Assembly (NCBI GenBank): GCA_030526265.1
Contig: JAUNDE010000014.1
Coordinates: 1 to 46,568, forward strand
DNA length: 46,568 nt
Source: Eubacteriales bacterium
GTDB taxonomy: Bacteria; Bacillota; Clostridia; Lachnospirales; Lachnospiraceae
Direction of reading: 5' to 3'
Part shown: one piece after another, positions 6,780-30,875 of the stretch
Numbering within the stretch: the stretch's first letter is position 1
Layout of the letters: every line of letters starts with the position of its first letter
The notes under the pieces: generated by a model
Database searches by the model: none
The model's input: only the letters and a program-made list of their open reading frames with translations
Told to the model about the DNA's origin: nothing
Translations under genes and position numbers: made by a program

Positions 6780-6811
6780 AAGTGGACAGATGTGCTCTGT
6801 CCACTTTTTAA
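6780..6811 (+). terminator. Terminator after cytX
   Basis: AAGTGGACAG (6780-6789), 7-base loop, CTGTCCACTT (6797-6806), then TTTAAAA. The T-run favours plus-strand termination of the thiamine operon; the hairpin also sits at the 3' end of the opposing recombinase gene. The same stem recurs at 8949-8978. Confidence 0.85.
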
Positions 6812-8658
6812 AAAAATGTTTTGGTTTTCAAGATTTCTTCTTTTGATTTGACAATATGATAAGGCTTATGCGAATTGGATGTCTCTTCCAGAATTTCCAT
6901 TTCTTTCATAAGCCTTATGTAAGGTATAATACTTTTGTCTGTTTTTTGAAATCCCAGAGCGGTGATATTTTCTGATAAATATCTGGCAGAAGTATAACCA
7001 TGCTCGTATTCTGCGATGAGTTTCATGATATTTGAGATGATCGTATTTTCCCGACGGTTCATTTCGGAGACAGGGCTCATATGGATCAAATTCGACAAAC
7101 CATATTTTAATGTGATTTCCGGCATTCCATCTTTATCCACGTCAATCCGCTCAATCAGAAGTTCGATATCTCTTCGGTCAATCGTTTCTTGGCTGATGAG
7201 TTTATCTATGGTGCTCAGAGCATTCTCTGCCTGTTCTTTTTCATCCAATCGTTCAAAGCAGATTTCATCCAGTTCTTTTAACTGCATTTCCAGATCATGA
7301 ATCTGAGTCATCATATCGCATTGCAGAGATGCATAGGTTTCATTTATTAATGCTTCGTTTTCCGCAGAAGCAGAGAGATCCTTTATTTTCTGAGCGAACA
7401 GCACTTTTAACTGAAGCTTTTTTTCTTCGATCACAGAGAGAAGTTCCTGTCTTTTTTCCTCCGGCGTTTCTTTTAAATCAAAATCTTTCAGATCATAGCT
7501 TTCGATGACTTCACAGAAAGCATTGCGGCACATCCTGATATAGGCGAGGATATCTTGTATCAGATCCTTTTCCTCGATCAAATGAGCTTTGGCACAATAT
7601 GCTTTCCCTTTGGTGTTATAAGTGGAACAAATATAATATTTTCGCTCTTTATTCGAACTCTTTCGTCTTATCGGTGTGAGCTGTCTGCCGCAGTCTTTAC
7701 AGAAGAGACAGCTTCCGAATGGATTTGGAATTTCTGATTCCGACCACTGCCCGCGGTTTCCTCTGTAATGCGACTGAGTACGCTTTTGTTTTAACTCCTG
7801 CACGAGAGAGAAAGAGACCTTATCAATGATCGCAGGATGATGATTTTCAAAAACATACTGATCTTCCTTCGGGACACGTTTATCTTTTCCATGAACCGTA
7901 TTTCTTGCCCGCTTTTTCAGACGGAGAGTCCCGATATAAAAATCATTATCGAGAAGATCTTTCACCATGCTGTCGGTCCACTTTGTGGTAATCGTTCTTT
8001 TGCTTATCCGTCCTTCTTCCAGATTTCGTTCATGTTGGATCATGGATGGGGTAGGAGCAGCGTGATCCGTCAGGTGGTTTGCGATTTTCCGATATCCCAA
8101 ACCGGAAATATAAAGTTCATAAATAATCTTTACAGTGTCGGCTTCTTTGGGAACAATTTCCAGAATCGTTCTGTCTGATGCATTTCTGCGATAACCAAAA
8201 GGAGGGTTCGTCATCAAAGTACCTTCTTTTTGTCTGGCGTGGATCGCGCGCCTGATCTTTTTGCTTGTATCTTTTACATAGCGCTCGTTGAACCATGTCT
8301 GAATCCCGATCATATCGTCACCGGAATTGTTCGAATCATAATGATCGTCAATGACGATCAGATGTTTTCCCCGTTCCTGAAATTCATCGAGAAGGAGCAG
8401 CACCCTGGCATTATGCCTTCCGAGGCGGGAGAAGTCCTTGACGTACACGGTATCAATATCTTTGTCAAGATCCGCCATCATCTGCCGGAAGCCGGGTCTG
8501 TCGAAGATGTAGCCGGAAATGCCGTCATCTTCATACCAGCGATCAATGATTACGCCCTGACTGGACGCGTATTGGCTAATGATCAGTTTTTGATTTTCTA
8601 TAGAGACGTAGTTTTTATGATCATCGTCTCTGGAAAGACGGACATATCCTGCGTTCAT
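6808..8658 (-). CDS. Large serine recombinase (TnpX/TndX-like)
   Basis: A 616-residue site-specific recombinase. The N-terminal resolvase domain has YVRLSRDDD with nucleophile Ser at about residue 9, then YEDDGISGYIFDRPGFRQMM and VKDFSRLGRHNARV (catalytic Arg region). A Recombinase domain (PPFGYRR...GYRKIANHL), a zinc-ribbon (CLFCKDCGRQL...YYICSTYN...YCAKAHLIEE), a long coiled coil (about 400-500) and a C-terminal tail follow. All parts look intact. AAAGGAGA precedes the ATG by 5 bases. It probably forms an operon with the 59-aa gene upstream. No cargo boundaries were identified, so it is either the remnant driver of a mobile element or a domesticated recombinase. Confidence 0.93.
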   Translation of the reverse strand: MNAGYVRLSRDDDHKNYVSIENQKLIISQYASSQGVIIDRWYEDDGISGYIFDRPGFRQMMADLDKDIDTVYVKDFSRLGRHNARVLLLLDEFQERGKHLIVIDDHYDSNNSGDDMIGIQTWFNERYVKDTSKKIRRAIHARQKEGTLMTNPPFGYRRNASDRTILEIVPKEADTVKIIYELYISGLGYRKIANHLTDHAAPTPSMIQHERNLEEGRISKRTITTKWTDSMVKDLLDNDFYIGTLRLKKRARNTVHGKDKRVPKEDQYVFENHHPAIIDKVSFSLVQELKQKRTQSHYRGNRGQWSESEIPNPFGSCLFCKDCGRQLTPIRRKSSNKERKYYICSTYNTKGKAYCAKAHLIEEKDLIQDILAYIRMCRNAFCEVIESYDLKDFDLKETPEEKRQELLSVIEEKKLQLKVLFAQKIKDLSASAENEALINETYASLQCDMMTQIHDLEMQLKELDEICFERLDEKEQAENALSTIDKLISQETIDRRDIELLIERIDVDKDGMPEITLKYGLSNLIHMSPVSEMNRRENTIISNIMKLIAEYEHGYTSARYLSENITALGFQKTDKSIIPYIRLMKEMEILEETSNSHKPYHIVKSKEEILKTKTFF

Positions 8659-10508: not shown

Positions 10509-10994
10509 TCAAACACCCTTTCGACCGCCAAGCACATCTTTGCCTTTCAGGTCTTCCCACTTGAAATCCTTTACATCTTCCCTTGCGACAAGAAAATTTC
10601 CGGCGCGCTGTGTGAGCTGGGCAAAGTTGACGACATAGTCTGTGGCACCTTCATTGTATGTGTAAATCGATGCTTCCGATCCCATAAAGCCAATGTCGGC
10701 TTCGCCGGAGAGAACAGCGGTCATGGTCTTATCGGCGCCAAAACCAGTGACGAGGGTTAAGCGAATACCCTCCTCTTCAAAATAGCCGTTCTCAATAGCA
10801 ACATACATCGGGGCATAGAAAATGGAGTGGGCAACTTCATTTAATGTTACATTTTTCAATTCTGTCGGTTCAGTGTCGGTCTTTGAAGTATCTGTTTCCG
10901 CAGATTTGTCAGAGTCTGATGCGCCTGAACATCCAATGACAATGACAGACAGCATAGATACAGTAAGGAAGAGTGCTAAAAGTTTCTTTTTCAT
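10509..10994 (-). pseudogene. Truncated NitT/TauT-type (NMT1/THI5-like) substrate-binding lipoprotein
   Basis: Starts with a lipoprotein signal (MKKKLLALFLTVSMLSVIVI then GCSG, lipid-attachment Cys at about residue 22) and a Ser/Thr/Asp linker. Lobe I of a periplasmic-binding fold follows: FYAPMYVAIENGYFEEEG, GADKTMTAVLSGEADIGFMG. It stops at GKDVLGGRKGV after 161 residues, where relatives of about 330 continue GGRKGG plus lobe II. No permease or ATPase partner is adjacent. Family members import sulfonates, nitrate or thiamine precursors, so a former link to the nearby thiamine genes is possible. The cut lies about 140 bases from the DUF6323-like start. Confidence 0.8.
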
Positions 10995-24063: not shown

Positions 24064-24092
24064 TTGACTTATCATTTTAATAATAATACAAT
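24064..24092 (+). promoter_or_regulatory. Promoter of the AT-rich island operon
   Basis: TTGACT (24064-24069), 17 bases, TACAAT (24087-24092), 41 bases before the first gene. An ATAC-N7-GTAT inverted repeat (about 24095-24109) follows and could be an operator. Confidence 0.65.
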
Positions 24093-24132
24093 TTATACGG
24101 TTATTGTATCGAAAAAACAGGAAATATCAGCT

Positions 24133-24564
24133 ATGGACTTAACAACTCAAGCAGTAGAAGTATGTGAACAATATAGAAGAAAAGGGTTTGCTTGTTCGGA
24201 ATCTGTATTTCGGGCACTTACCGATATTTATAATCTGAAAGTACCTATGGATACATATCAGGTGATCAGTGTGTTTGCCGGCGGTGGTATTGATGATGGT
24301 CGCTGTGGAGTCGTTGAAGCAGGTCTTTTCGTCATTTCTATTCTTTTTAAAAAGGGGAAGCTTTCCAGAGCATATTCATTAGAAGAATTATCTGTTCAAC
24401 TTCATCAGGAGTTTGTTGATTATTATGGCGGTTATAATTGTAGGGATATATTTTATCCTTTATACGAAGAACATAAGCGCTCGTTAAAAGGTGAAGCTGA
24501 TTTTTTTTGTGCATTTCACGATGGAATAACAATTATTACATCCTTTATAGAATCGAAGATATAA
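24133..24564 (+). CDS. C_GCAxxG_C_C-family small redox-type protein (first copy)
   Basis: About 143 residues from the ATG at 24133 (AGGA upstream); longer in-frame starts fall in the promoter. Cys pattern of the C_GCAxxG_C_C family: GFACSESVFRAL (about 20-31), FAGGGIDDGRCGVVEAGLF (about 55-75), YYGGYNCRDIF, and a final Cys in FFCAFHDG. The family is presumed redox-active or metal-binding and is often next to sulfur or selenium genes; no reaction is established. First gene of the island operon, directly before the binding-protein gene, so it may process or protect the imported compound. Confidence 0.7.
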   Translation: MDLTTQAVEVCEQYRRKGFACSESVFRALTDIYNLKVPMDTYQVISVFAGGGIDDGRCGVVEAGLFVISILFKKGKLSRAYSLEELSVQLHQEFVDYYGGYNCRDIFYPLYEEHKRSLKGEADFFCAFHDGITIITSFIESKI

Positions 24565-24588: not shown

Positions 24589-25494
24589 ATGAAAAAAAGA
24601 GTATTGAGTATGGTTCTTTGTGGTGTCATGGCTATTAGTATGCTTACAGCATGTTCAGGCAGTTCAAAGAGTGAGGAAAGCAGTGAAGAAAAAGGAACTG
24701 TTGTAATGGGTGGAAAGTCTTTCACAGAGGCTTATCTCTTGAGTGAAATCTATTCACTTGCTTTAGAGGATAATGGATATACTGTTGAAAAGGTGTATGA
24801 TATGAACACAGATACAATTACACCTGCTATCCAGAATGATGAAATTGACATGTATCCAGAATACATCGGAACAGCTTTGACAGATATACTTGGTGCCGAA
24901 CTTGAAACAGACGTTGATGTAATGTATGAAACTGTATCTAGTCAGTTTTCTGAGAAATGGAATATTAAATGGCTTGATCTGACTACAATGGAAGACAAGG
25001 TAGTTATGGTTATGCGTGCTGACAGAGCAGAAGAGTTAGGCGTTAAAACACTTACAGATCTTCAGAAGGTGGCAGATCAGCTTATTCTTGGAGATGGTGT
25101 TAATTTCGCAGAGAGAGAAGATGACCTTCTGAGATTAAATAGTATTTTTGGAGAATTTGCATTTGAAGTTAAGAATGTAGATTACTCTCTTGCATACTCA
25201 TGTCTTGAGGATGGATCAGTGGATGTAATTCCAGGATTATCAACAGATCCACAGCTTCTTGGAGATACTTATGTAGTTATTGAAGAAGATCGCCCTGTAT
25301 GGCCACCACAGTATGTTGCTCCAATCGTAAGACAGGAAATTTTAGATAAGTATCCGGAAATTGAAGATATTTGTAATAATGTTTCAAAGAATATTTCTAC
25401 AGATTCTATGATTGAGATGTTGGATAAAGTAGTTAACGGCGGAGAAGAATATGAAGACGTTGCTAAGGACTTTTATGAGAACAATTGCAAATAA
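24589..25494 (+). CDS. OpuC/OsmF-type quaternary-amine ABC substrate-binding lipoprotein
   Basis: 301 residues: lipoprotein signal ending MLTACSGSS (Cys at about 22), Ser/Glu linker, then the OpuAC fold. The family signatures GKSFTEAYLLSEIYS (canonical xKNFTEQyiLgE) and IDMYPEYIGTALTDILG are present, as is VIPGLSTDPQLL, but the usual glycine-betaine stretch is replaced by unusual segments (GDGVNFAERED). An osmoprotectant-type ligand (choline, betaine, carnitine) or a related sulfur betaine such as ergothioneine is possible; the ligand cannot be read here. Partner permeases and ATPase lie downstream. Confidence 0.88.
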   Translation: MKKRVLSMVLCGVMAISMLTACSGSSKSEESSEEKGTVVMGGKSFTEAYLLSEIYSLALEDNGYTVEKVYDMNTDTITPAIQNDEIDMYPEYIGTALTDILGAELETDVDVMYETVSSQFSEKWNIKWLDLTTMEDKVVMVMRADRAEELGVKTLTDLQKVADQLILGDGVNFAEREDDLLRLNSIFGEFAFEVKNVDYSLAYSCLEDGSVDVIPGLSTDPQLLGDTYVVIEEDRPVWPPQYVAPIVRQEILDKYPEIEDICNNVSKNISTDSMIEMLDKVVNGGEEYEDVAKDFYENNCK

Positions 25495-25502
25495 TCATAA
25501 AT

Positions 25503-25949
25503 ATGAATGAGAAATCCGAAAAAATTTATTACTTGAATCATAATATTCGGGAATATAAAAAGGAGGGGTATCCTTGTGGACCTGCAAGCCTTAAAGCCTT
25601 GGCAGAGACATATGGGGTATCCCTTTGTCTTGAATTAGAATATCAGGGTTTGATTTTTACTAATGGAGGCTATGTAAAGGATCGATGTGCCTTTTTTCAG
25701 TCTGCTGCAGTTATCATAGGTCTCTGGCTTGGCAGAACTGATCCTTCAGTAAAAAGAGATGCCTATAGACAAGCTATGGGAATACTGTCGGAGACATTTT
25801 CTAAAAATGTAGGAAGTTATCTATGTCAAAATATTTCTGAATGCTCTGATTTTCAAAATGAAGAATGCCTTGAATCACTTTCCCAGACTGTGATTGAATC
25901 GCTTGATTATATTCTTGAAAATATCGTAAGAAGACAAAGCACAAACTAG
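25503..25949 (+). CDS. C_GCAxxG_C_C-like small cysteine protein (second, divergent copy)
   Basis: About 148 residues. Cys occur at positions resembling the first gene of the operon: EGYPCGPASLKALAETYG, FTNGGYVKDRCAFFQSAAV, YLCQNISECSDFQNEECLES. It is clearly diverged, with a longer acidic C-terminus and extra Cys. No good ribosome site is seen and it starts 8 bases after the binding-protein stop, so coupling is likely. Sandwiched between binding protein and permease, it may be specific to this transport system. Function unknown. Confidence 0.6.
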   Translation: MNEKSEKIYYLNHNIREYKKEGYPCGPASLKALAETYGVSLCLELEYQGLIFTNGGYVKDRCAFFQSAAVIIGLWLGRTDPSVKRDAYRQAMGILSETFSKNVGSYLCQNISECSDFQNEECLESLSQTVIESLDYILENIVRRQSTN

Positions 25950-25957
25950 GAGGATAT

Positions 25958-26596
25958 ATGATTTCAGATATGATACAATATGCCATCAAAGACTCCGATA
26001 GATATATAATGTTGATCGAGCAACATTTGCTTATGGATGCTGTAGCATTATTTATATGCGTTATCATAGGCGTTCCTGTCGGGTATTTGTGTGCAAAGAA
26101 AGAAAAAATATCAGTTCCGGTTACTGCGATCGCAACATTGTTTATGATGATTCCCAGTTTGGCACTTTTCGCTATTTTACAGCCGATCTTTGGAATGGGG
26201 GCTACTCCGGCTATGATTGCACTTATTCTTGGTGGAATCCCGCTTATTATCATAAACACAAGGTCTGGATATCTAAATGTGGACAAGAATGTTTGTGAAA
26301 ATGCATATGCGCTTGGAATGGAACACTGGAGGGTTTGTCTGATGGTAGAGACACCGCTGGCATTACCGTCTATTCTAAATGGACTACGAATCTCAGCAGT
26401 CTCTGTAATTGCCGGAACTGCAATCGCAACGTATATTGGCGCCGGAGGGCTTGGATTCTATATCGATATGGGTATTGGGACACGTAATTTTGCGGTATCC
26501 TATCTTGGGGCTTTTACGGTTGCATTTATCGCTGTGACTGTTGATTTTGTTCTTTCTATTTTACAGAAAAGACAGCTAAAGAAAGTAACATATTAA
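25958..26596 (+). CDS. OpuCB-type ABC permease
   Basis: 212 residues, about five membrane spans. The permease signature LRISAVSVIAGTAIATYIGAGGLG and the EAA-like loop ENAYALGMEHWRVCLMVETPLALPSILNGL place it with betaine/choline (ProW/OpuC) permeases. AGGAGG before the ATG. It probably pairs with the second permease at 27583-28212 as a heterodimer. Confidence 0.9.
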   Translation: MISDMIQYAIKDSDRYIMLIEQHLLMDAVALFICVIIGVPVGYLCAKKEKISVPVTAIATLFMMIPSLALFAILQPIFGMGATPAMIALILGGIPLIIINTRSGYLNVDKNVCENAYALGMEHWRVCLMVETPLALPSILNGLRISAVSVIAGTAIATYIGAGGLGFYIDMGIGTRNFAVSYLGAFTVAFIAVTVDFVLSILQKRQLKKVTY

Positions 26597-26615: not shown

Positions 26616-27572
26616 ATGACAGAAATTGCAATTGAATTCAAAAATGTAAGAAAGCGTTTTTCTGGAAATGAGTATGACTCGGTTTCAGATGTAAGCATTT
26701 CCATTGAACAGGGAAGTTTTATTACTATTCTCGGAACATCTGGGTCAGGAAAAACCACACTCTTAAAGATGGTAAACCGAATTCATGAATTAACCGATGG
26801 GGAGATCCTGTATTTTGGTGAAAATATAAACGATCTGAATGTCAATGATTATCGCAGAAAAATTGGCTATGTTATTCAGCAGAGTGGACTTCTTCCGCAC
26901 AAGACTGTAGAAGAAAATATAGCAATTGTTCCGAAGATGCTTAAATGGGACAAGCAAAAAATAGATAATCGAATCAAAGAATTGATGGATTTGGTTTGTC
27001 TGGATTATGATACTTATCGTAAGCGTTATCCAAGAAGCCTTTCTGGAGGAGAACAGCAGAGGGTTGGTATTGCCCGGGCACTTGCAACAAATCCGTCTGT
27101 TATGCTGATGGACGAGCCATTCGGTGCTATTGATGCCATTACTCGAAGTGTGCTTCAGAAAGAGATAAAATCTCTACAGAAGAAGTTGAAGAATACTGTT
27201 CTATTTGTAACACATGATGTATACGAAGCATTTTTGCTCGGAAAAAAGATAATTGTCATGGATGGCGGAAAGATTCAGCAGTTTGATACACCGTTTAATA
27301 TTATGATGCATCCAGCCAATGACTTTGTTAAGAAGCTTATTTTTACAGGGGACATCTATGATAAATTAAAAGTACTTACTATTGATAATGAATTAGAAGA
27401 GGCTACTCCGGAAGAAATCAAAGAGGGTATCCGGATCGAAGCGGACAAACATCTGAATGATGCGTTAGTTCTTTTTATAAAAAAAGAATGCAAGTATCTG
27501 ATCGTTGTGGACAATGATCAGGTTCTTGGAAAATTACCAATAGAAAAGTTACAGTCAATTATGGGTAAATAG
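26616..27572 (+). CDS. OpuCA-type ABC ATPase
   Basis: 318 residues. Walker A GTSGSGKTTL (about 39-48), Q-loop VIQQSGLLPHKTV, signature RSLSGGEQQRVGIARAL, Walker B VMLMDEPFGAID, switch His in LFVTHDV. The C-terminal extension ends in a short CBS-like stretch (CKYLIVVDNDQVLGKLPIEKL), shorter than the tandem CBS pair of true osmosensing OpuCA, so osmotic gating may be absent. Energises the importer. Confidence 0.92.
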   Translation: MTEIAIEFKNVRKRFSGNEYDSVSDVSISIEQGSFITILGTSGSGKTTLLKMVNRIHELTDGEILYFGENINDLNVNDYRRKIGYVIQQSGLLPHKTVEENIAIVPKMLKWDKQKIDNRIKELMDLVCLDYDTYRKRYPRSLSGGEQQRVGIARALATNPSVMLMDEPFGAIDAITRSVLQKEIKSLQKKLKNTVLFVTHDVYEAFLLGKKIIVMDGGKIQQFDTPFNIMMHPANDFVKKLIFTGDIYDKLKVLTIDNELEEATPEEIKEGIRIEADKHLNDALVLFIKKECKYLIVVDNDQVLGKLPIEKLQSIMGK

Positions 27573-27582
27573 TGAGGAGATC

Positions 27583-28212
27583 ATGGATTATTTAATCAGT
27601 CATTATGATGCTGTTCTGGAATGTGTTCTGGAACACGTCGAATTAACAGTTTTAACACTTTTGATTTCATTTATTATAGCATTCCCTATCGGAGTGCTGA
27701 TTTCAAAATGTAAAATAATGTCAGGACCAATTAACGGGATCTTCAATACCATATATGCCATTCCATCGATCGCGCTCTTTGGATTTCTTATTCCGTATAC
27801 CGGAATTGGAACAGGAACAGCGATTACGGCATTTGTTGTATACAACCAGTATATGCTGATAAAAAGTGTAGAAGCAGGTTTTGATTCCATAAGTCCTACT
27901 ATTCATGAGATTGGCAAAGGTCTTGGCTATAACAAATTATATTTTTTCTTTTCAGTAGAACTGCCGCTTGCACTTCCATCTATAGTAAATGGATTGAAAC
28001 TTGCAACGATTGGGACTGTTACAGGGTCTACATTGGGTGCAACAATAGGAGCAGGTGGATTAGGCGTTTTGATTTTTCGAGGTCTTAAAATGAGGCATTG
28101 GAATAAAGTCATTATTGGAACTGTTTTGTGTACGATTCTGGCATTTGCTTCCTCGATCTTATTGCAGGCAATTGAAAATAGAGTAAGAAAAAGAGCGCAG
28201 GGTGAGCTGTAA
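27583..28212 (+). CDS. OpuCD-type ABC permease
   Basis: 209 residues, about five to six spans. LLISFIIAFPIGVLISKCK, FNTIYAIPSIALFGFLIPYTGIG, the loop IHEIGKGLGYNKLYFFFSVELPLALPSIVNGL and TGSTLGATIGAGGLG match OpuCB/OpuCD permeases. GTGAGGAG upstream. Its TAA overlaps the ATG of the MFS gene by one base (TAATG), showing translational coupling. Confidence 0.9.
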   Translation: MDYLISHYDAVLECVLEHVELTVLTLLISFIIAFPIGVLISKCKIMSGPINGIFNTIYAIPSIALFGFLIPYTGIGTGTAITAFVVYNQYMLIKSVEAGFDSISPTIHEIGKGLGYNKLYFFFSVELPLALPSIVNGLKLATIGTVTGSTLGATIGAGGLGVLIFRGLKMRHWNKVIIGTVLCTILAFASSILLQAIENRVRKRAQGEL

Positions 28213-29429
28213 TGAAAGTGAAACAGAAAAAAAATAATGCTCTTGGTATGATTGTAACCTTAGCATGCGCTAATACCGCTTTATATGGGCTCCCCTTTAT
28301 GAGAAGCCAGTTTTATGATATTATGCGGGATGCATTACATCTTACCAATACGCAGCTTAGTACGCTGTTTAGTATTTTTGGCGCTGTTTCTATGGGATCT
28401 TATCTTGTGGGAGGGGTTCTTGCAGATTACATTTCTGTCAAAAAGATATTGTTAATTGCTTTGCTCGTATCCGGAGTATTACATCTGTCTGTTATTGCAG
28501 TACCCAGTTATATTATACTTTGCTTTATCTTTGGAATTATGGCGGTGACATCCGTTTTGATGTTTTATCCATCATCTATGAAAGTTTTGAATTCATTGAG
28601 TGAAGAGAAAAAGGGATCAATATTTGGAAATTATATCGTGGTTATCGATATTCTTGGTATTCTGATTGTCGGAATAGGTCTTTTATTTCTTATGATGACT
28701 AAGAATAATACATTTGTATTCAAAAGCATTGTAGCATTGTATGGAGTGATCCATTTTATTGCAGCATTTTTTTTGAACAGACTCTTTAATGAACAAGAAT
28801 ACTGTGATAGGGCTAGAAGGATCAAACTTTCGGAAATTTCGGGTATAATAAAGAATAAAGCTACCTGGGGAGTAGTTGTCATCTTTTTTTGTAACTACTT
28901 AATGATAGGGGCACTTACTTATGTGATTCCATTTCTTTCACAGATGTATCATATGGATGAAACTTCTACACTTATTATATCTATTGTCAGAGTAAATATT
29001 CTTGCTATTTTTGCGGCCTACTTTGGTGGTAAGATTGTCGATAAAACAGGATCTGCCATCTGTGTTAGTAAGGTTACCTTTATTATTAGCAGTTTATTTG
29101 CGATTCTTATTATTGGAAGTTTTCATATCAATGTTCCATTGTGGATTATCATCTTTTCGGTTATGATTATTTCCACTCTGGTTAACGCAGCAAAATCAAT
29201 TAACATGATTACGATATCGGAAATTCAAATACCGCAAACCTGCATGGGTACGGCAATTGGAATTATTACTTTTTTTGGTTATTCACCAGATGCATTCTAC
29301 TTTTCTTTTGCAGGATTTGCTATTGACCAGTGGGGGAAACTTGGGTTTGAAATTATCTTTCTCTCATTATTAGTTTGTGGAATTATTGGGGGGATAGCAT
29401 GTAAATTGCTGGAAAGGAACAAATTATAA
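28212..29429 (+). CDS. MFS transporter coupled to the ABC importer
   Basis: 405 residues, 12 predicted spans. Major-facilitator motif A-like GGVLADYISVKKILL between spans 2 and 3, and a second GGKIVDKTGSAICVSK between spans 8 and 9. Overlaps the preceding permease stop by one base, so expressed with it. It could export a product of the imported compound or serve as a second importer. Substrate unknown; visibly AT-rich like its neighbours. Confidence 0.85.
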   Translation: MKVKQKKNNALGMIVTLACANTALYGLPFMRSQFYDIMRDALHLTNTQLSTLFSIFGAVSMGSYLVGGVLADYISVKKILLIALLVSGVLHLSVIAVPSYIILCFIFGIMAVTSVLMFYPSSMKVLNSLSEEKKGSIFGNYIVVIDILGILIVGIGLLFLMMTKNNTFVFKSIVALYGVIHFIAAFFLNRLFNEQEYCDRARRIKLSEISGIIKNKATWGVVVIFFCNYLMIGALTYVIPFLSQMYHMDETSTLIISIVRVNILAIFAAYFGGKIVDKTGSAICVSKVTFIISSLFAILIIGSFHINVPLWIIIFSVMIISTLVNAAKSINMITISEIQIPQTCMGTAIGIITFFGYSPDAFYFSFAGFAIDQWGKLGFEIIFLSLLVCGIIGGIACKLLERNKL

Positions 29430-29433
29430 AGAT

Positions 29434-30708
29434 ATGAATATAAAAAAAATCGATACGAATACCGTACACTTTGCTCTTAAATCTGATGATTGGGTGGTGG
29501 TTGATACTAGAAACTCTAACTCTTTTATTGGTTGGTGTATGGAGAGTGAAAAGAAAAAAGGGCATATAAAAGGTGCTACTGACTTTGCGGCGGAATGGAT
29601 CACATTTCCATTTATCAGTGCATGGTCAACTAAGGAAGAAAGAATCAGAAATATAGAAAATAAGTTCAAAGATAAAAAGTTTTTGCCTGACATGAAGATT
29701 ATACTTTATGACACAAATGGGACTGATGCTGAAGTTGTGGCTCAGTATTTTTTCGAGAGAGGACTTCAAAATCTATATTATTATAACTTTAATGATTGGG
29801 ATGGAGATACAACCTGTGTTGATCATTATGAAAAAATGGTTCCGGTTCAATGGGTAAAAAATGTTATTGATGGTAAAAAAACAGAGTTCTATGATGGAGG
29901 TCGATATAAAATATTTGAAGTCTCTGAGACGGAAGAACCCTGCAAAGAGTTCCTGGAAGGTCACATTCCGGGAAGTACTCATATCTGGGTCAACGAATTT
30001 CAGAAATTTCCTGAACAGTGCATGGCATCCGATGATGTTTTGGAGGAATTCGCTCGCAATAACGGAATTACAGTAGATACAACGGTTATTATTTATGCTA
30101 TGGGGTATACTGGAGCCAGCCACCTTCTGGCGCTCGTTCTTGAATACATGGGAGTGAAGAATATTCATTGTATCAATGGAAGTAGTCATCAGTGGCTTCA
30201 ACAGAATTATCCTGTAGAAACAGGATTTGCTGCAAAACAACCGGTAGAGTCTTTTGGAGCAAAGATTCCAGGAAATAAAAACATTGTAGTTAAGATTGAA
30301 GAGGCAAGGGAAATAATGCTTGAAACGCATTCTGACCAATTGGTAGATATGCGTTCATGGGAAGAGTATACCGGGGTTACGTCAGGCTATGATTATGTTG
30401 AACGAGCTGGAAGAATTCCCAATACTCTGTGGTGTTTTAAAGAACACTGGTATCTTAACCCGGATGAAACGATGGGAAATCCGGAAGAAATGGTTGATCA
30501 TTGGAAAGAGTGCGGAATTGATTTAAATAAGAGAAATGTATTCTTTTGTGGTGCAGGTGCTTGGTGAGCTTCTACTATTGTGCAGCAAGGTGTTGCTGCA
30601 GGGAAGAATGTTGCTTTCTTTGATGGCGGATGGTGCCAGTGGCAGATGGATCCTGATAACCCAGTTGAAATAGGGATTCCTGAACAGTACAAGGAATATG
30701 ACAAATGA
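29434..30708 (+). CDS. Triple-rhodanese sulfurtransferase (YnjE-like) with in-frame UGA, possible selenoprotein
   Basis: Three rhodanese domains. Domain 1 (about 15-125) has VVVDTRNSNSFIGW and an active loop without Cys (YDTNGTDAEV). Domain 2 (about 150-265) has EGHIPGSTHIW and Ala where Cys is expected (YAMGYTGAS). Domain 3 (about 290-424) has LVDMRSWEEYTG and a catalytic Cys372 in FFCGAGAW. Codon 378 (30565-30567) is UGA; the frame continues ASTIVQQGVAAGKNVAFFDG and GWCQWQ to a natural UGA at 30706. A hairpin suited to a SECIS lies at 30581-30600. Only domain 3 could be active, as in E. coli YnjE. If UGA is not read through, the protein is truncated and probably inactive. No strong ribosome site; AAGGA lies about 15 bases upstream. 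Confidence 0.75.
30569..30606 (+). promoter_or_regulatory. Candidate bacterial SECIS hairpin
   Basis: TGCAGCAA (30581-30588) and TTGCTGCA (30593-30600) form a perfect 8-bp stem with loop GGTG; below an internal loop, CTTC (30569-30572) pairs with GAAG (30603-30606). The apical loop begins after 21 intervening bases from the UGA and starts with G, fitting the published bacterial SECIS pattern (loop 16-37 bases from UGA, G among the first loop bases). Chance remains possible, as the stem lies in coding sequence. Confidence 0.45.
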
Positions 30709-30747
30709 GATAATAAAGAAAAATGGAATTAGAAAACAGATAAAGTT

Positions 30748-30780
30748 GGTCATGGAGCATATGCACCATGACCGTTTTTA
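30748..30780 (+). terminator. Terminator closing the island operon
   Basis: GGTCATGG (30748-30755), 10-base loop, CCATGACC (30766-30773), then GTTTTTA. Confidence 0.88.
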
Positions 30781-30875
30781 AGTGTAGGTATTTATTCTGA
30801 ATACAAATGCAGTAAGAAAACCTGAACGAAAGATTAATTGGATCTTTAATCAGTTTGATTCATATTTAAATGATT

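Follow-up and report, generated by a model that had tools for sequence, protein, structure and literature searches.

Introduction

Triple-domain rhodaneses are represented by YnjE (PDB 2wlr/3ipo) and by the sulfurtransferases 6kvy and 6h98. In the part of the literature on rhodanese-fold proteins available to us, C-x5-R active-site loops are described beside C-x4-R/T loops, and CDC25 with phosphatase and arsenate-reductase chemistry (PMC10135228). Rhodanese domains also occur as selenoproteins: the available sections of a 2026 review give forms 1 to 5, with the motifs UxxS, UxxG, CxU, UxxG and UxxxxU (TsoB), where U is selenocysteine (Sec) (PMC13188914).

Here we describe a triple-rhodanese gene from a member of the Lachnospiraceae in which an in-frame UGA close to the catalytic Cys is likely to be read as Sec. 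The gene lies in a stretch of 46,568 nucleotides (contig JAUNDE010000014.1), the whole of which we refer to as the window. A phmmer search against the PDB with its product (hereafter the query) returned near full-length matches to 6kvy (E = 8.2e-56) and 2wlr (E = 7.2e-51). The entire case rests on one draft genome of 107 contigs.

Results

A triple-rhodanese gene with an in-frame UGA

The features of the locus are listed in Table 1. A Pfam search found three PF00581 stretches in the product (104.1 bits). The gene is the last of its operon, its ATG (29434) falling 4 nt past the stop of the MFS gene. By a simple pattern the query is without the lipobox-like motif that is present in 27 of 43 aligned rows. 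As read from the sequence, a loop Cys (C372) is present in domain 3 but not in domains 1 and 2.

According to the preliminary description, codon 378 is a UGA that lies six residues beyond Cys372, and the frame is open for 46 further sense codons that complete a rhodanese domain; both points are confirmed in the frame that begins at the ATG. The loop reads C-x5-U and the third rhodanese domain is complete at the final stop. The 46 codons beyond the UGA are conserved relative to the best-scoring homologue, L035 (e.g., FDGGWCQW..DNPVEIGIPEQYKEY), so that the gene presents an in-frame UGA followed by conserved coding sequence. The other window genes that end in TGA (4 of the 36 listed) have just 0–5 open codons beyond it. 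A terminator-like hairpin follows the full-length stop; it was not listed by a simple terminator scan.

Table 1. Coordinates of the rhodanese gene, its elements and the operon that it closes (window positions).
Feature	Position	Strand	Remarks
Redox protein of C_GCAxxG_C_C type (Cys form; lacks an in-frame UGA)	24064..24564	+	PF09719 50.5 bits, TIGR01909 48.7 bits, both over cut-off
OpuAC-type substrate-binding protein	24589..25494	+	PF04069 150.3 bits
Second, diverged C_GCAxxG_C_C protein	25485..25949	+	PF09719 27.5 bits, cut-off 27
ABC permease	25958..26596	+	PF00528
ABC ATPase, ProV-like	26616..27572	+	TIGR01186 285 bits, below cut-off 326.6
ABC permease	27583..28212	+	PF00528
MFS transporter	28212..29429	+	PF07690
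Triple-rhodanese gene	29434..30708	+	probably cytoplasmic; reading through UGA 378 gives 424 codons plus stop
Cys334 codon	30433..30435	+	Cys in query and L035 only, among 43 aligned rows
Catalytic Cys372 codon	30547..30549	+	aligned with rhodanese loop Cys
In-frame UGA, codon 378, proposed Sec	30565..30567	+	aligns with active-site loop Arg (most rows) or Gly (L035)
SECIS-like hairpin	30569..30606	+	upper stem 30581-30600, 8 bp; loop GGUG 30589-30592; weak lower stem
Cys401 codon (GGWC)	30634..30636	+	Cys in query and L035 only, among 43 aligned rows
Final UGA stop of rhodanese gene	30706..30708	+	reading frame
Terminator-like hairpin with T-run, 3′ of full-length stop	30741..30780	+	fold of 30731-30790, -22.6 kcal/mol

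The genome can decode UGA as selenocysteine

A search for selA, selB, selC and selD, suggested in the preliminary description, found the machinery present in the same genome. The genes selA (603.5 bits), selB (359.7) and tRNA-Sec (64.4) all score over their cut-offs, and selD (TIGR00476) and prdB (TIGR04483) are each interrupted by an in-frame UGA of their own. The genome can decode UGA as Sec, and the UGA of the rhodanese gene lies within seven codons of the catalytic Cys.

On one contig of this genome (G000, C24, 55000-80886; L097, L145) yedF, selD, selA, selB and tRNA-Sec are clustered. The same stretch contains a cysteine desulfurase family gene, yedE (a putative selenium transporter) and a D-proline reductase cluster with prdB, together with prdA-, prdC- and LysR-like genes named by eye. 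All seven examined genomes with a triple-rhodanese homologue (G000, G001, G002, G315, G452, G1112 and G1209) have selA over cut-off; the family might be linked to selenium use, the tally covering only genomes that carry a homologue.

A SECIS-like hairpin follows the UGA

Limits published for bacterial SECIS (bSECIS) elements in a figure legend are a loop of 3–9 nt, a stem of 4–16 bp, a G in the first two loop positions, a spacing of 16–37 nt and an MFE of at most -7.5 (PMC13188914, Fig. 2 legend). The hairpin after UGA 378 falls within every one of them: positions 30581-30588 pair with 30593-30600, the stem begins 13 nt and the loop 21 nt after the UGA, and the stem-loop energy is -11.1. CUUC (30569-30572) and GAAG (30603-30606) can close the hairpin as a lower stem. 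The perfect 8-bp stem, GGTG loop, both distances and bacterial SECIS geometry of the preliminary description are all borne out. The distance of 21 nt from UGA to loop recurs in prdB of the same genome; in selD it is 32–33 nt. Our filter counts unbroken stems only and finds both of these elements, although its sensitivity is limited, as two loci with a UGA at the catalytic Cys (L088 and L092, below) give no hit within the limits.

How often would such a hairpin arise by chance? Within 36 other window genes, listed by hand, 246 of 11545 codons are followed by a hairpin that lies inside the limits; the count falls to 44 at an energy of -11.1 or below, and to 8 when a G[G/U] loop is additionally required. 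Inside the rhodanese gene itself 21 of 424 codons qualify (three hairpins), and the chance rate per codon is 2–5%. Among 20000 random synonymous recodings of the stretch, 1.9% have an 8-bp stem with a G loop; an equally stable fold arises in 1.5% of 3000 recodings in one run and in 32 of 3000 in another (1.1–1.5%). By comparison, 662 of 5000 recodings (13%) fall within the bare limits: the local amino acids already favor a hairpin, which lowers the odds of Sec. Dinucleotide shuffling gave z = -1.56, with 14 of 200 shuffles folding as well.

The clearest of the hairpin tests is the positional control provided by homologues: at the matching codon none of 50 lies within the bSECIS limits, the best reaching -5.5 versus -11.1 in the query, although this partly reflects the homologues' differing amino acids. 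The preliminary description asked whether relatives conserve the stem, and none of the 50 keeps one. Residues 376–390 are among the 15 windows (of 15 residues each) with the lowest family likeness relative to 23 homologues, as expected if RNA structure constrains the sequence there; windows in residues 60–80 are even less family-like. Taken together, the hairpin moderately exceeds chance expectation.

Homologues examined carry Arg or Gly at the UGA position

The preliminary description reasoned that Cys or UGA at codon 378 of homologues would support Sec. Neither was found among the 39 and 50 homologues of two sets: the aligned codon is Arg in 36 and Gly in 3 of the first, and Arg in 49 and Gly in one (L035, GGA) of the second. 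Six rows are common to both sets. The count of 50 derives from 51 rows minus L165, in which the loop was not found; the pattern could score only Arg, Gly or stop at the site, and it fitted all remaining rows. The extra loop residue of the query was placed variably by MAFFT, so that the UGA pairs with either the loop Arg or the Ala that follows it, and the pairing with Arg was adopted on the basis of a W-x-A-S anchor shared with L035. In L049, L057 and L070, all near full-length, Gly replaces Arg in a loop of normal length (CGDSWGAA).

The wider search gave the same picture. Matches from 1986 genome look-ups (repeats included) contained no UGA at this codon, and genomes drawn from the same family, genus, order and class yielded one clade partner, L035. 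Single-sequence scans of genome contigs and viral contigs returned no relative. Plasmid records with a match numbered 114, two of which were read. An alignment scan gave 46 loci: none of 23, nor of 21 more distant ones, has a stop in the loop, and the matches of L137 and L138 miss the loop.

Several candidate UGA homologues were rejected. In L063 the TGA is upstream of the match proper; the match of L055 ends before the loop, which reads Arg. L088 (genome G445), L092 (G501) and L198 (G493), weak matches from the same order, have their UGA at the catalytic Cys rather than at codon 378: they read VFUQGGVRSA, PCUQLGARAA and AYUQAGVRAA, the assignment in L092 being by the U-x4-R motif alone. These three look like conventional rhodanese selenoproteins. 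L088 has 59 and L092 41 open codons after the UGA, and neither has a hairpin within the limits by the unbroken-stem filter.

L035 is the clade partner of the query

The best-scoring homologue, L035, comes from a genome of the same family (G315) that has selA. Its identity to the query (41%) is no higher than that of Arg-bearing rows (L100, 41%), and L100-like rows are equally near by path. In a tree of the query and 42 of the 51 loci, cut by length and by four exclusions by name, query and L035 form a clade with support of 100/98, both on long branches. The two are alike in the lengthened loop, in C334 and C401 and in operon type: L035 adjoins an OpuAC-type binding protein, plus two permeases and an ATPase read by eye. 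L035 also lacks a lipobox by the simple pattern. Where the query has UGA, however, L035 has Gly: its loop reads C-G-S-A-S-W-G, the last codon being GGA, one base from UGA, with no bSECIS-like hairpin at the matching codon. Sec was either gained from Gly in the query or lost to Gly in L035.

Near the ABC genes of L035 (L095, 4823-5752) is a gene for a 4Fe-4S ferredoxin-domain protein of 309 residues that contains a Cys-rich stretch; no counterpart was seen in the window operon.

The operon and its surroundings

The operon that ends in the rhodanese gene looks intact. It includes two proteins of C_GCAxxG_C_C type, a putative redox family that includes selenoproteins according to the available text of the review (PMC13188914); both carry Cys only. 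A reading of the operon as a Sec-assisted organometallic (SAO) system was rejected, as scores fall far under the family cut-offs (SaoP 50.8 and 47 of 295 bits; SaoA 170.6 of 360) and none is the best hit.

Elsewhere in the window, the minus strand at 10509-10994 encodes 161 residues that resemble the N-terminal part of an ABC substrate-binding lipoprotein (named by eye). This fragment ends abruptly, looks like a broken gene and lies ~2 kb from a large serine-recombinase-like gene (6808-8658).

Discussion

A probable selenoprotein and its rivals

We consider it likely that the gene encodes a triple-rhodanese selenoprotein, probably cytoplasmic, in which UGA 378 is read as Sec. This reading is favored because, set against the missing Cys homologues, the Sec-decoding machinery, the hairpin and the position of the UGA next to the catalytic Cys weigh more. 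The proposal of a new selenoprotein in the preliminary description stands insofar as the sel genes, the SECIS limits, the conserved downstream frame and the place of the gene at the close of an operon agree with it; homologues with Cys or UGA, which it named as a test, are what it lacks. Existence of Cys homologues is a usual but not an absolute criterion: GrdA is stated, in the portion of the source available to us, to be without known Cys homologues (PMC1794560).

The principal rival is that GGA or CGA has recently mutated to UGA, or that the draft assembly contains a base error; the protein would then end at Trp377 and the hairpin would be coincidental. The homologues speak for it: the best-scoring one has GGA and most others Arg codons, a single substitution turns GGA or CGA into UGA, and no homologue among those examined has Cys or UGA. 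SECIS-like hairpins, moreover, follow 2–5% of codons by chance and 13% of synonymous recodings, and the window does hold a gene fragment. Yet this UGA falls near a catalytic Cys in a Sec-decoding genome, it is followed by a hairpin with the spacing of prdB that is missing in 50 homologues, and the remaining frame and the operon look intact. We therefore regard mutation or error as unlikely, if by no means negligible.

Suppression of the UGA by another tRNA (inserting, for instance, Trp or Arg), which would yield selenium-free full-length protein in small amounts, would also account for the conserved frame beyond it; this we think very improbable, since UGA is a working stop here: it ends the rhodanese gene and four further genes of the window, which is also why a different genetic code was rejected. 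Least credible is a functional 377-residue protein using its incomplete third domain in binding: rhodanese domains that lack catalytic activity are regarded as modules for interaction (available part of PMC10135228), but the remainder of the domain would be lost right past the catalytic loop, though the lost part is still conserved.

A possible mechanism

Turning to the selenoprotein, from machinery, geometry and conservation we infer that SelB and tRNA-Sec of this genome would insert Sec at UGA 378, guided by the hairpin at 30581-30600. Domain 3 would be the active domain, its loop exceeding that of ordinary members by one residue (C-x5 versus C-x4) and carrying Sec in place of the loop Arg. 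Sec378 would then face the catalytic Cys, as the preliminary description proposed. The extra cysteines common to query and L035, along with the OpuC-type ABC operon, suggest a multi-thiol redox or thiophile-binding site. Cys372 and Sec378, perhaps with C334 and C401 of neighboring loops, could form a selenenylsulfide/thiol redox or thiophile-binding center that would replace a plain persulfide-transfer site; the proximity of these four residues, the redox chemistry and the substrate are inferred, and the substrate is probably taken up through the OpuC-type ABC transporter encoded in the operon.

A more specific scenario is rather doubtful but worth stating: the loop Arg was swapped for Sec, the catalytic Cys kept and two cysteines gained, and a C334/C372/U378/C401 chalcogen cluster would act, by reduction or cleavage, on a sulfonium-, arseno- or organometal-type betaine analogue imported via the OpuC-type transporter, Sec having been gained from Gly or Arg and not from Cys.

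Implications

One of the two main routes to finding selenoproteins depends on homologous proteins that pair Sec with Cys, and deep-Sep, a newer tool, likewise requires Sec or Cys homologues in its homology filter (available parts of PMC13188914 and PMC12013277). A Sec replacing Arg or Gly would escape both. If the selenoprotein reading is true, an active site with a catalytic Cys can acquire a neighboring Sec in place of a residue other than Cys, and the rhodanese fold has a wider chemistry.

Comparison with known systems

The query matches triple-domain rhodaneses over nearly its whole length and has three rhodanese domains as YnjE does, but not the C-x4-R active loop: 6kvy, the one entry shown aligned, has C-x4-R, whereas the query has C-x5-U plus C334 and C401. 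Rhodanese domains of the Cdc25/Acr2 type (C-x5-R; available part of PMC10135228) have a lengthened loop like that of the query; the query, however, is without Arg at the loop end, and the architecture differs, so that it shares the length and not the motif.

With the known rhodanese selenoproteins the query shares a rhodanese domain with a predicted Sec. Four of the five motifs start with Sec, whereas the query keeps Cys and has its sole Sec six residues on. It matches none of UxxS, UxxG, CxU and UxxxxU, and C-x5-U is absent from the forms given in the available sections of the review (PMC13188914); nor did a search of the literature available to us find a C-x5-U rhodanese motif. By our own reading of the TsoB motif as printed there, the second U, five residues past the first, may occupy the same Arg position. 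If the arrangement is real, what is new relative to these sources is a lengthened C-x5-U loop that keeps its catalytic Cys and has Sec where relatives have Arg or Gly.
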